A stretch of 34,481 nucleotides of DNA, taken from a virus. Position numbers and translations under genes: made by a program. This document shows, piece by piece, positions 3,816 through 24,545 of this stretch. The notes beneath the pieces were generated by a model. It was given only the letters and a program-made list of their open reading frames with translations, did not search any database and had not been told where the DNA came from. Position 1 is the stretch's first letter. Every line of letters starts with the position of its first letter. The stretch is from the IMG/VR virus record IMGVR_UViG_3300044796_000144, positions 1-34,481 of that record; one strand, given 5' to 3'.

Positions 3816-3867
3816 GGTTTCCTCCTCGGAAACAGTTGCGGTTATGGGCGCTCCTCGCGCCAGTGGA

Positions 3868-4698
3868 TTACAGCCATCCCCAGGCAATCGCAAAGTCTGC
3901 GGTGGCCTCTTCGCCGAACGCAGCCCGCGCATTCTCCTGCGCCTGCATCTGGCGTACAACTTCAAGCCTTAGTTTCGCCATCATGCGCGCTTCTTCCGCG
4001 ATGCACATCTGGTAGCGCTCCGGCGCAAACCGCATCGCGTACTGAATGAGCATCTTCGAGACGATAGCGTTTTTCGAGTCGAGCAGCGGCACATAGGCCG
4101 TCGAGAAGTCCAGATTGACGGGACTCAGCGGGACCGGGTAGGTAATCCGCGCCCGCAAGCGAAGGTCAGTCGCCTGCATCGCGCCGCGCATCCAGATCAT
4201 GCCCTCGCGCATCTCCCATTGGCCCATGCGAACATCCTGCAAGCCGCCAGGCAGGCCAAACGGGGCCGGTTGCATCGGCGTAAAATCCCAGCTCCCTCCC
4301 GATACGCGCTCCCACATGGCCAGCATCTTCGATACGCCGATGGGCAGTGTCCATTCAGGATGCCACTGAAAGCCGTCGAAGTAACCCTGGTAGCCGAGCG
4401 CCACCTGCACGGCGGGATCTTGCTGCGTAAGCGCCGGGATTCCGGTCAGGATGTAGTTGTCGAGGATCAGTTCAGGGTCGCCCACGTTGCGCAGGTCGGA
4501 GTATGTCTCAGTGATCGCTGAATCCAAGAAGTCCAGCAGATCGGGGTTCGAGTTGGGCATGATAAGGCCCGCTTCGTTGCCCGTGCCGGTGCCGGTGCCG
4601 GACGTGTTGTTCGCAGTGTCGTTGATGCGGCTGCGAAAACGGTCAGCGATGCCCTGTAGGTTGGGATAACGAACGTTGCCGCCGACGACTGCCTGCAT
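3868..4698 (-). CDS. Probable head-tail adaptor / tail-tube-like connector protein
   Basis: This 276-residue protein has a start preceded by AAAGGAATGCACC. The N-terminal part (about residues 50-105) is acidic and helical, with ITETYSDLRNVGDPELILDN. The middle holds WHPEWTLPIGVSKMLAMWERV and a Met/Trp-rich stretch. The end is a long helix (MMAKLRLEVVRQMQAQENARAAFGEEA). Length, composition and position downstream of capsid and portal genes fit a connector or tail-tube-A-like adaptor of a short-tailed phage. This is inferred from context rather than from a diagnostic motif. Confidence 0.7.
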   Translation of the reverse strand: MQAVVGGNVRYPNLQGIADRFRSRINDTANNTSGTGTGTGNEAGLIMPNSNPDLLDFLDSAITETYSDLRNVGDPELILDNYILTGIPALTQQDPAVQVALGYQGYFDGFQWHPEWTLPIGVSKMLAMWERVSGGSWDFTPMQPAPFGLPGGLQDVRMGQWEMREGMIWMRGAMQATDLRLRARITYPVPLSPVNLDFSTAYVPLLDSKNAIVSKMLIQYAMRFAPERYQMCIAEEARMMAKLRLEVVRQMQAQENARAAFGEEATADFAIAWGWL

Positions 4699-20724: not shown

Positions 20725-20808
20725 ATGGACATCTACGGAAAATGGGACTGGCGCATTCTGGCAGTGCTGATTATCGGTGGCCTGATTGCGGGATGGATGA
20801 TCGGATGA
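20725..20808 (+). CDS. 27-residue membrane peptide
   Basis: The reading frame MDIYGKWDWRILAVLIIGGL continues to WMIG and ends in TGA. Residues 9-27 form one membrane helix after an aromatic-rich start. Its stop overlaps the ATG of the next gene (ATGA at 20805), the same coupling used by certain genes nearby. The ribosome binding site (GAGAC) is weak. A small membrane peptide that targets a host membrane process is possible. Confidence 0.5.
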   Translation: MDIYGKWDWRILAVLIIGGLIAGWMIG

Positions 20809-21104
20809 CGCGCGATGAGATATGGACCGCCGCTGTAGCCCTTGCCGACGCATACATGCGCGATGCCGGACGCACGTCATGGGACGATAGCGACTGGGCC
20901 GCGATGGTCGCGGAGTTTGACCGCCTGTGCCCGCCGCTGGAGTTGATACCGACCGCGGTAATCCGCTGCGAGGTTAATCGGCGCACTGCGCGCGAGTCGC
21001 CCAAACACAAGACTCTGCGCCCATGCGCGGGATGCGGCGCAATGCTGGGAGCGCGAGAGAGGCGCAAGGCGTGCCCGAAGTGTGGTGCGAGGAACCCGCG
21101 ATGA
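20805..21104 (+). CDS. Zinc-ribbon protein, function unknown
   Basis: This 99-residue protein starts at the ATG at 20805, which overlaps the stop of the membrane peptide. The N-terminal 60 residues are helical with Trp/Asp (MTRDEIWTAAVALADAYM, SWDDSDWAAMVAEFDRL). The C-terminus holds a zinc ribbon: CAGC and CPKC with Gly turns (PCAGCGAMLGARERRKACPK). Its stop overlaps the ATG of the methyltransferase remnant (ATGA). Confidence 0.72.
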   Translation: MTRDEIWTAAVALADAYMRDAGRTSWDDSDWAAMVAEFDRLCPPLELIPTAVIRCEVNRRTARESPKHKTLRPCAGCGAMLGARERRKACPKCGARNPR

Positions 21105-21151
21105 CGCCATACTACCAGCACGCGGGTATTACCATCTACCACGGCGGATAA
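21101..21151 (+). pseudogene. Stranded N-terminal fragment of a DNA methyltransferase
   Basis: Sixteen codons read MTPYYQHAGITIYHGG and then TAA. The intact methyltransferase at 21521 begins MSLYYDHAGIQIHLGD. Nine of sixteen residues match, in the same order and spacing. The DNA differs at many positions, so this is the head of another, diverged methyltransferase allele rather than a fresh duplicate. Its ATG is coupled to the zinc-ribbon gene by ATGA, as an intact gene would be. The HNH/methyltransferase module directly behind it probably replaced the rest. Confidence 0.65.
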
Positions 21152-21162
21152 TTCGTGGTAGA
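21135..21162 (+). repeat. 9-bp perfect inverted repeat at the HNH module border
   Basis: TCTACCACG (21135-21143) is repeated inverted as CGTGGTAGA (21154-21162) with a ten-base spacer. It starts inside the methyltransferase remnant and ends in the TAGAAT box before the HNH gene. It may be a regulatory hairpin/operator for the HNH gene or a footprint of module insertion. No T-run follows. Confidence 0.5.
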
Positions 21163-21173
21163 ATGTGATTATG
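21159..21173 (+). promoter_or_regulatory. Candidate leaderless promoter of the second HNH gene
   Basis: TAGAAT (21159-21164) stands six bases before the ATG at 21171, with no ribosome binding site. The box overlaps the right arm of the 9-bp inverted repeat, so a protein bound there could block it. Confidence 0.4.
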
Positions 21174-21524
21174 GATGCAAATGAGAGAGCACGCCGCTAT
21201 CGTGCCCGTAAAAAGGGCGAAGACGTTCCAAAGTTGAAACCGGGTCCAAAAGAGGGATTCAAGCAAGATGCCGAGCATGTCGCTAAGAGAGTTAAGTTCG
21301 GCCCCGAGCATCCCCATTGGGATGGAGCCAAGCCTACTCTCAATGCGCTGCGAAAGAGGGCTTGCAGACTGGTTCCTGCTCTTGGCCCATGCGAACGATG
21401 CGGGGAGAACGGAACCGACCGTCACCACAGGGACTTCAATATGAGAAACAACGTTCCTGAAAACCTGGAAGTTCTCTGCGAGCGGTGCCATATTCTTACG
21501 CATGGAAAGAAGCCGCGTAAATGA
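21171..21524 (+). CDS. HNH endonuclease (zinc-binding type)
   Basis: This 117-residue protein has a basic N-terminus (ERARRYRARKKGEDVP). Its C-terminal HNH domain has CERC (Cys74, Cys77), the HHRDF core (His85-His86, Asp88), NNVPENLEVLC with Asn98, and CERCHILTH (Cys103, Cys106, His107, His111). The paired cysteines bind structural zinc. It probably nicks or cuts DNA and may be a homing enzyme carrying the methyltransferase behind it. A GTG at 21165 is possible, but the ATG is preferred. Its stop overlaps the methyltransferase ATG by four bases. Confidence 0.85.
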   Translation: MDANERARRYRARKKGEDVPKLKPGPKEGFKQDAEHVAKRVKFGPEHPHWDGAKPTLNALRKRACRLVPALGPCERCGENGTDRHHRDFNMRNNVPENLEVLCERCHILTHGKKPRK

Positions 21525-22252
21525 GCCTTTACTATGACCATGCAGGGATTCAGATCCATCTGGGCGATTGCCGCGAGATTCTTCCCGCGCTACCCAAGTG
21601 CGACCTGCTGCTGACTGACCCACCCTATGGGATCACACAGAGCGCATGGGATGTTACCGGAGCGGTTCTTGAAGTCTTTGACGCTATAGTTTGCCCAATT
21701 GTTTGCACGTCTCAGAATCCTTTTACGGCGGAATTGATCTGCAGATACCGGAAGCGGTTCAAGTGGTCGGACGTGTGGGAAAAGACGCAGGCCACCGGGT
21801 TTCTCAATTGTAAGGTGATGCCCATGCGCCAACACGAGGACATTCTTGTTTTCTGCGACGGGAGGATGCCTTACTTCCCGCAAATAACTGCACGCATAGC
21901 GGAGAACATCCGGCCCCACCTAGACACCGTAGAAACAGCAAGCTACGGGAAGTACAATGCGAAGAGGGAACGGACTATCGAGATCGATAAAACCTACCCT
22001 CGAAGCGTAGTAAAGTTTCCGAACTCGCAAGATGGTTTACACCCAACAGGCAAGCCGTTATCATTGTTCTCTTACTTAATGCGCAGCTATTCCGCTCCAG
22101 ATCAGACTGTCTTCGACCCCTTCATGGGCAGCGGCACAACGCTGGTAGCAGCGAAGAATCTAGGGAGACAGGCAATCGGCATCGAGATTGAGGAGAAATA
22201 CTGCGAGATCGCCGCCAAGCGCCTGAGCCAAGAGGTATTCGACTTTTCCTGA
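21521..22252 (+). CDS. DNA methyltransferase, beta-class N6-adenine/N4-cytosine type
   Basis: This 243-residue enzyme transfers a methyl group from S-adenosylmethionine to an amino group in DNA. The catalytic motif DPPYG lies at 33-37 near the N-terminus. The SAM-binding FDPFMGSGTT lies at 198-207 near the C-terminus. This order, with the target region between them, defines the beta class. HPTGKPLSLFSYLMR (174-188) and AIGIEIEEKYCEIAAKRL (218-235) are also typical. No restriction enzyme is seen nearby, so it likely protects phage DNA from host nucleases or modifies expression. It is coupled to the HNH gene. Confidence 0.93.
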   Translation: MSLYYDHAGIQIHLGDCREILPALPKCDLLLTDPPYGITQSAWDVTGAVLEVFDAIVCPIVCTSQNPFTAELICRYRKRFKWSDVWEKTQATGFLNCKVMPMRQHEDILVFCDGRMPYFPQITARIAENIRPHLDTVETASYGKYNAKRERTIEIDKTYPRSVVKFPNSQDGLHPTGKPLSLFSYLMRSYSAPDQTVFDPFMGSGTTLVAAKNLGRQAIGIEIEEKYCEIAAKRLSQEVFDFS

Positions 22253-22259
22253 AAATAAT

Positions 22260-22298
22260 TGCGCACACTGCGCACAACCGTGCTACAGTTGATTCATG
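22260..22298 (+). promoter_or_regulatory. Candidate promoter/operator of the RHH gene
   Basis: TGCGCACA occurs twice in tandem with a 9-bp period (22260-22268, 22269-22277). It is followed by TACAGT (22284-22289) six bases before the ATG at 22296, with no ribosome binding site. Ribbon-helix-helix proteins commonly bind tandem short repeats, so self-regulation is a reasonable guess. TTGCGC (22259-22264) is a weak -35 at 19-base spacing. Confidence 0.45.
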
Positions 22299-22427
22299 GA
22301 ACTACGCATCACCAAATTCGACGCCGCGCTGCATAAGTCCCTCAAGATGCAGGCGGCAAAGCAAGGTAAGTCCCTGCGGCAGGTTGTTATTGAACTGCTG
22401 CGCGAATCCATCAAGTTAACCAAGTAA
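22296..22427 (+). CDS. Small ribbon-helix-helix (Arc/CopG-type) DNA-binding protein
   Basis: This 43-residue protein begins with a short strand (MELRITKFDAAL). A helix with LKMQAAKQGKSLRQVVIELL follows, matching the strand-helix-helix pattern and the conserved G-x-S-L turn of RHH repressors. It is among the smallest such proteins. It probably dimerises and represses early genes or itself; a tandem TGCGCACA repeat lies just upstream. It is the only obvious repressor-like protein here, and there is no sign of an integrase. Confidence 0.7.
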   Translation: MELRITKFDAALHKSLKMQAAKQGKSLRQVVIELLRESIKLTK

Positions 22428-23704: not shown

Positions 23705-23952
23705 GCCAATACACTTCACCGCATGACGAGCCCTGGTTCAGCGACCCCGATCAGCCCTGGGGCGGTTCGCACAAGCGCATTGAGCGCGACCCGGACGAAG
23801 AGCGCGACCGGCGCATAGATGATGCGCTGACTGAGACGCCAAGCACACCCGAGCAGATCGCAGCACGGCGCGCATTCGTTGAGCGCCACTTTGCAAACTT
23901 TCCGGACTTACAGCAGCGCCTGGCTATGCTGGGCGGCGAGGCGAGACAATGA
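23701..23952 (+). CDS. Small charged early protein
   Basis: This 83-residue protein starts at the ATG overlapping the previous stop and ends overlapping the next. An N-terminal Trp/Pro-rich disordered region (PHDEPWFSDPDQPWGG) is followed by an acidic/basic helix (EERDRRIDDALTE) and a second helix (AARRAFVERHFANFPDLQQR). No family recognised. Confidence 0.65.
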   Translation: MSQYTSPHDEPWFSDPDQPWGGSHKRIERDPDEERDRRIDDALTETPSTPEQIAARRAFVERHFANFPDLQQRLAMLGGEARQ

Positions 23953-24545
23953 AAATCGAAGAAATCTATGCAATACCGGTGGATGGCGATGGATGGAGAT
24001 TGCTACCCAGCGGAAATAAACTGATGATTGGCTCCAACGTGCAAGCGCCGGACGGCATCAATTTATCCAGCATCGGCGCGAGGGCCAGCATCGGCGCGGG
24101 GGCCAGCATCGGCGCGAGGGCCAGCATCGGCACGGGGGCCAGCATCGGCGCGAGGGCCAGCATCGGCGCGGGGGCCCACATCGGCGCGTGGGCCCACATC
24201 GGCACGGGGGCCAACATCGGCGCGAGGGCCAGCATCGGCACGGGGGCCAACATCGGCGCGAGGGCCAGCATCGGCACGGGGGCCAGCATCGGCGCGAGGG
24301 CCAGCATCGGCACGGGGGCCATATTTGAAAAATCCCCATTGGCTGTGCAAGGGACGAGGCACATCGCTATCCAGCACTCACCTGGAAAGATCGCAGTCGG
24401 CTGCCAGGTGCATACCTACGCAGAATGGAAGCGCCACCATAAATTGATTGGCGAGGCTAACAACTACACGCCTGAAGAGATCGAGGAGTATGGGCGCATC
24501 CTTGATTTCCTGATTGCCAATAGCGCACCAGCGGAGGCGAAATGA
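23949..24545 (+). CDS. Hexapeptide-repeat (left-handed beta-helix-like) protein
   Basis: This 198-residue protein is built around fourteen six-residue repeats (residues 41-124) of the form S/H/N-I-G-A/T-x-A. A hydrophobic residue plus Gly every six positions is the rule for the left-handed parallel beta helix. Fourteen units would make close to five coils of a triangular prism. Positions alternate Ala-Arg with Ala/Thr-Gly, so one face may carry a regular ladder of Arg. A capping region follows (EKSPLAVQGTRHIAIQHSP), then a helix (TPEEIEEYGRILDFLI). Classic hexapeptide enzymes are acyltransferases, but no catalytic domain is visible here. It is embedded in the early operon by ATGA overlaps on both sides. 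Confidence 0.8.
   Translation: MKIEEIYAIPVDGDGWRLLPSGNKLMIGSNVQAPDGINLSSIGARASIGAGASIGARASIGTGASIGARASIGAGAHIGAWAHIGTGANIGARASIGTGANIGARASIGTGASIGARASIGTGAIFEKSPLAVQGTRHIAIQHSPGKIAVGCQVHTYAEWKRHHKLIGEANNYTPEEIEEYGRILDFLIANSAPAEAK
24069..24320 (+). repeat. 18-bp tandem repeat, 14 units, coding for the beta-helix
   Basis: Fourteen units of AGCATCGGCGCGAGGGCC and close variants (GCGCGGGGGCC, GCACGGGGGCC, and units beginning CACATC or AACATC). Each encodes six residues, so gain or loss of units keeps the frame. Spacing is constant with no unique spacers, so it is not a CRISPR array. Confidence 0.9.

Follow-up and report, generated by a model that had tools for sequence, protein, structure and literature searches.

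In the window, i.e., the whole 34,481-nt stretch of an IMG/VR virus record, an HNH endonuclease gene is located on the plus strand between a short methyltransferase-like open reading frame and an intact DNA methyltransferase (MTase). The upstream neighbor is a zinc-ribbon gene (20805–21104, plus strand), which has relatives on 16 viral contigs, with 47–95% identity. Its stop codon overlaps by ATGA, in a translational coupling arrangement, a 16-codon frame (21101–21151, plus strand) encoding MTPYYQHAGITIYHGG followed by a stop, which is interpreted below as the displaced native head of an MTase. The native sequence of this head ends at 21146 (GGCG) and its TAA stop codon is supplied by the insert sequence. 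A 9-bp inverted repeat (21135–21162), whose arms TCTACCACG (21135–21143) and CGTGGTAGA (21154–21162) are separated by a loop of 10 nt, spans the end of this frame. It is overlapped by an extended −10-like promoter on the plus strand, TGGTAGAAT (21156–21164, the feature extending to 21170), which ends six bases 5′ of the HNH ATG and leads to a leaderless-type start. The HNH gene itself (21171–21524, plus strand) encodes 117 amino acids with Pfam and PHROG HNH matches. Its stop overlaps, again by ATGA, an intact N4/N6 DNA MTase (phrog_67; 21521–22252, plus strand) which starts with MSLYYDHAGIQIHLGD. All the elements described in the original prediction, namely the head fragment, the inverted repeat, the HNH gene and the intact MTase, are thus borne out. 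The beginning of the intact MTase, MSLYYDHAGIQIHLG (21521–21565, plus strand), is a diverged head located at the 3′ end of the insert. By analogy with the mycobacteriophages Jung and Atcoo, where only this segment is foreign, it may be read as carried by the insert.

The downstream edge of this slot is a small RHH-like gene (22296–22427, plus strand), which is located just downstream in the relative L087 and in many other relatives as well. The HNH gene and this gene (with its upstream region, 22281–22427) share a leaderless-type start with an extended −10, which here takes the form TGCTACAGT-TGATTC-ATG after repeats of TGCGCAC; the arrangement is conserved in relatives. Further downstream, a gene with a long GARASIGxx repeat (23949–24545) belongs to phrog_5353, whose function is unknown.

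The HNH catalytic motif of freestanding phage HNH homing endonucleases is present in the encoded protein, with weak family scores: the PHROG HNH match has an E value of 2e-4 and the Pfam HNH match an E value of 0.0024, under the gathering score. The HH-N-H catalytic residues and two CxxC motifs are conserved in A4, and the predicted structure contains a beta-beta-alpha element at 83–111. PDB searches by sequence and by fold gave no significant match, the best ones being other HNH domains (E>0.2), and no relatives of this HNH were found in bacterial and archaeal genomes or in plasmids. A promoter arrangement similar to that of the window HNH is present in L114 (TGATATAAT-6-ATG), and L126 contains the promoter-like sequence TTGACA-17-TAATAT. 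The left arm of the inverted repeat corresponds to the native-head target codons ATC-TAC-CAC-G and its right arm lies within the HNH promoter. That this promoter might mimic the target and be autorepressed, as for I-TevI, is only an idea. The inverted repeat was also considered as a conserved regulatory hairpin, a possibility that was rejected as it is not seen at the other loci with two MTase heads described below and folds no better than shuffled sequence (z −0.65).

An uninterrupted relative of the locus

If the 16-codon frame is the remnant of an MTase, relatives with an uninterrupted MTase coupled to the zinc-ribbon gene are expected, as anticipated by the original prediction. Such a relative has been found in L087, in which the zinc-ribbon gene is ATGA-coupled to an uninterrupted MTase starting with MTPYYQHAGITIYHGDCREIM and belonging, like the window MTase, to phrog_67. 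The window head fragment is identical to the core of the L087 MTase head at 33 of 36 nt and all three differences are synonymous, which confirms its identification as an MTase-head remnant. The short peptide was not encountered as a separate conserved gene lacking an MTase ancestor. Together with the HNH-linked occurrence of displaced heads among 75 MTases (see below), this match argues against a chance resemblance. The head of the intact window MTase differs from that of L087 at 14 of 36 nt.

Similarity between the window and L087 stops at GGCG (21146) and restarts at GGCGATTGC (~21563), where it extends over 71 bp at 80%. It is absent in the middle of the MTase and comes back from ~22175 through the gene tail and the next gene. 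This pattern indicates that a resident MTase of the L087 lineage was interrupted in its head in the window. Judging from its sequence, the middle of the present window MTase is of another type than that of L087, and a replacement of the body is therefore also possible in the window. This body may have come with the HNH or been changed separately, and mosaic recombination probably explains the differing middle.

The slot between the zinc-ribbon and RHH-like genes looks like a spot of MTase turnover. In L090, it contains a phrog_757 MTase, while in L084, L088 and L097 the zinc-ribbon gene is followed by short ORFs resembling internally deleted remnants of other genes (MIAALYVQ...RNATPPLFRDLL in L097 and MTPICYDL... 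in L088).

Recurrence of the arrangement and nature of the mobile unit

The same anatomy, i.e., a displaced native head, an HNH gene and an MTase with a diverged replacement head, is present in the window and in four other viruses. In Mycobacterium phage Jung, whose HNH shares 45% identity with that of the window, the native head MTKPYYQDDQVTLY runs straight into the HNH, and the coupled next gene encodes an MTase whose head is different, VTLYYEDDQVQLFHGD. Scans based on HNH alignments revealed three further loci: L112 (displaced head MEPYYQDDAVTIYH followed by a stop, MTase head ...FYCDDSVCIIHGD), L114 (displaced head MKPYYEKDGIVI..., replacement head KPYYHDETAGIAIFLGD) and L126 (displaced head MNPYYSDKYVTIYN..., replacement head WYYSDKYVAIAHGD). 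The five displaced heads all end within ~5 codons of each other. A scan for displaced heads across 75 distinct MTases of this family retrieved one for each of the four HNH-linked MTases, that of L112 being added by eye, which brings the double-head loci with HNH to five. Among the rest of the 75, just L029 has a displaced head. At this locus (3820–4040), the displaced head MKPYYEEPSITIYHGDSL, followed by a stop, is located 184 nt 5′ of an MTase with the head MKPYYSEPGIDIYLGD and without HNH, and it is possibly a decayed element.

HNH relatives recur beside unrelated phage MTases. In L113, L129, L132 and L133, the HNH directly precedes MTases of other classes, with no recognizable displaced head. 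The MTases immediately 3′ of the HNH relatives in L113, L129 and L132 are of the SPPF class, and in L113 and L132 the HNH comes right after a gene ending with PAWL and a stop. The HNH family may have a second target in these SPPF-class sites. In L111 (2916–3387), an HNH of the same family occupies the 3′ end of a different gene, flanked by two copies of the codons for LPFLRRPV that differ in spelling, so that the MTase-head insertions are mirrored at the opposite gene end. More distant HNH relatives (L131, L134–L147) are not beside MTases and were excluded.

The comparison of Jung with Atcoo delineates what has been inserted. The gene for Jung gp56 is found again in Atcoo, as gp62, uninterrupted and without HNH. 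Between the two MTases, 7 of 600 nt differ in the body and 12 of 36 in the head core (Fisher 6e-12), and divergence changes abruptly at the insertion site. A near-identical body with a foreign head implies that the Jung insert consists of the HNH and a replacement head, not the MTase. On the evidence of this comparison, the mobile unit in Jung is the HNH together with a spare recoded version of the first ~15 codons. This clean exchange of the head alone is seen between Jung and Atcoo, but not in the window, where the MTase middle also differs. Up to L110 2909–2917, the displaced head of Jung follows on from the sequence found in Xeno, Xula, Fishburne and Majeke, all of which have an uninterrupted MTase there. 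Presence/absence polymorphism at one site is thus found both for Jung versus Atcoo, Xeno, Xula and Fishburne and for the window versus L087.

These data bear on the original prediction that an HNH-plus-MTase cassette replaced a resident MTase and left its head behind. A resident MTase did exist, as attested by L087, and a selfish element bearing the HNH stranded its head upon insertion. The part which is not supported is the MTase as mobile partner, Jung and Atcoo sharing the same body with and without HNH and differing by the head alone. Likewise, the proposal that the MTase protects against the HNH was not substantiated: across the five loci, the HNHs are 46–64% identical whereas the middle (specificity) regions of the MTases are 21–39% identical, so that one nuclease family could hardly be matched to each methylation specificity. 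We therefore regard as improbable a restriction-modification-like cassette moving as one unit, in which the MTase would shield DNA from the HNH. The adjacency and translational coupling of HNH and MTase, the window MTase middle unlike that of L087 and the presence of HNH relatives upstream of MTases of several classes would agree with such a cassette. However, it leaves unexplained the constant interruption within the same few head codons, and replacement heads persist without HNH.

Such HNH-less alleles are found in Hamulus, LittleShirley and Donkeykong, which have kept the replacement head and at most ~26 nt of the HNH tail. The native head is found in many other records of this MTase. Similarly, L067 has an L126-like head without HNH. 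At the four loci where the native head has the TxYHG motif, the replacement head is changed at both T and Y. In the fifth locus, L114, a native V is changed to A in the replacement head and the Y position is F. These changes fit the loss of a cutting site. A pattern scan also retrieved heads of the LYY..Q type without HNH in seven further contigs (L151–L155, L157 and L158), which led us to reject such heads as a marker of HNH-linked genes alone. The MTases of these contigs, one of which is of another class, have the head SLYYEDEYVQLHHGDC or close variants, and these heads may be the source or a relic of replacement heads. As they exist without HNH, the spare head may be a natural one that was borrowed, not one recoded for immunity.

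Even less probable than the cassette is ordinary mosaic recombination, in which, through frequent MTase swapping, an unrelated HNH and a different MTase would have landed after a truncated resident MTase. The cargo of the zinc-ribbon/RHH slot does vary among relatives, including the phrog_757 MTase and the head-plus-tail remnants of other genes. The recurrence in unrelated phages of the same HNH family, orientation, interruption point and head duplication speaks against it, as does the MTase body of Jung, which has not been swapped.

HNH genes are found in introns and inteins, and related mycobacteriophage MTases have inteins (Atcoo gp55 is annotated as methylase and intein). An intron- or intein-borne homing HNH with an MTase rebuilt by splicing is nonetheless very improbable: Rfam gives no match to an intron or any other RNA family at E≤1 in the window or the Jung region, leaving no group I or II intron RNA core, Pfam returns the HNH alone and no splicing domain at the window locus, a stop codon separates the head from the HNH in place of an in-frame self-splicing domain, and the downstream MTase has a separate start and is complete with its own head, so that splicing is not needed.

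Proposed homing element and related systems

The anatomy of the locus is real and recurrent. At the sequence level, it comprises insertion in the head, displacement, a replacement head with a sharp boundary, occurrence at several loci, and alleles that are uninterrupted or that have the new head without HNH; from these we infer cleavage, homing and immunity. We consider it likely that the insert is a selfish homing element of the HNH type, directed at the initial codons of phage N4/N6 MTase genes and equipped with a diverged spare for the piece that it cuts off. The HNH protein would cut an HNH-free MTase allele near the conserved codons T-I-Y-H-G-D, and repair from an HNH-bearing allele would copy the HNH and the spare head into the break by recombination. 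The native head would be severed and left as a dead 16-codon stub, while the MTase would restart, with no splicing involved, from the spare head, ATGA-coupled to the HNH stop. As the spare head keeps the protein motif and differs at the codons around the break, the element would not recut its own allele, and this divergence would also prevent its loss through recombination between identical repeats.

The systems closest in logic to this phage element are the mobile ORFs of fungal mitochondria, which form gene hybrids with Allomyces atp6 and with Glomus atp6, atp9, cox2 and nad3 (PMC3630166). In both cases, an endonuclease ORF is located near a gene end and brings a foreign version of the terminus that it cuts off, the native one being displaced. 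This combination is found at the five double-head loci and at the Jung/Atcoo boundary. In fungi also, the two terminus copies differ widely as DNA (63.5% identity for atp6) although they encode a conserved protein (PMC3630166). However, fungal mobile ORFs encode LAGLIDADG or GIY-YIG nucleases, affect the C-terminus and reside in mitochondria, none of which applies to the phage element, which combines an HNH with N-terminal replacement and ATGA coupling and is found in dsDNA phages. The phage element thus works like a fungal mobile ORF without being a member by descent; it is a 5′-end counterpart, in phages, of mobile-ORF gene hybrids.

Like the freestanding nucleases of T4-type phages, the HNH is an intron-less phage gene inserted in or next to a conserved gene (PMC2988022). 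These nucleases (mobE, mobA and seg genes) have their own promoter, with hairpins or overlaps around the start, and the genes invaded by mobE (in Aeh1) and by mobA (in T4) are each divided into two parts that still function (PMC2988022). They carry no spare end, in contrast to the element described here, in which the severed part is given up and a copy brought by the insert takes its place. The ShiLan domain, a hidden HNH of 195 aa in a mycobacteriophage methylase, is another intron-less and intein-less HNH insertion in a phage MTase (PMC11855218). It differs by its larger HNH, its insertion position and its in-frame internal location, the MTase being read through it. The 11 in-frame residues at its start are similar to the 11 that follow the insertion site, with ~66–68% DNA identity, and its authors suggest no replacement-exon mechanism (PMC11855218). 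This insertion may be a related solution, and the element proposed here offers a candidate explanation for its puzzling duplicated flank. Finally, the logic of cutting a gene and copying in a nuclease with a cut-resistant gene piece is that of synthetic home-and-rescue drives such as HomeR, an engineered Cas9 system in insects, whereas the phage element is a natural, single small HNH gene (PMC7968924). A literature search, from which subscription papers were mostly absent, found no description of a 5′-end replacement element in phages.

Because empty, occupied and possibly resistant alleles exist in cultivable mycobacteriophages (Atcoo, Jung, Hamulus and LittleShirley), drive, rescue and resistance could be tested in the laboratory. 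Residence in introns, inteins or intergenic sites is how homing nucleases usually spare coding genes. Carrying a recoded first exon as a spare would be a minimal further solution, appearing repeatedly in unrelated phages, and the element would also be a source of variation at the 5′ start of phage MTase genes. More tentatively, homing elements that dispense with splicing and carry a cut-resistant spare of the severed gene end could form a general class in phages, at the 5′ side in MTase heads, at the 3′ side in L111 and perhaps internally in ShiLan. If so, such elements would be natural home-and-rescue drives and their nuclease-free descendants drive-resistant alleles. The window phage itself encodes two recombination proteins, an Erf-like annealing protein and a YqaJ-like exonuclease.
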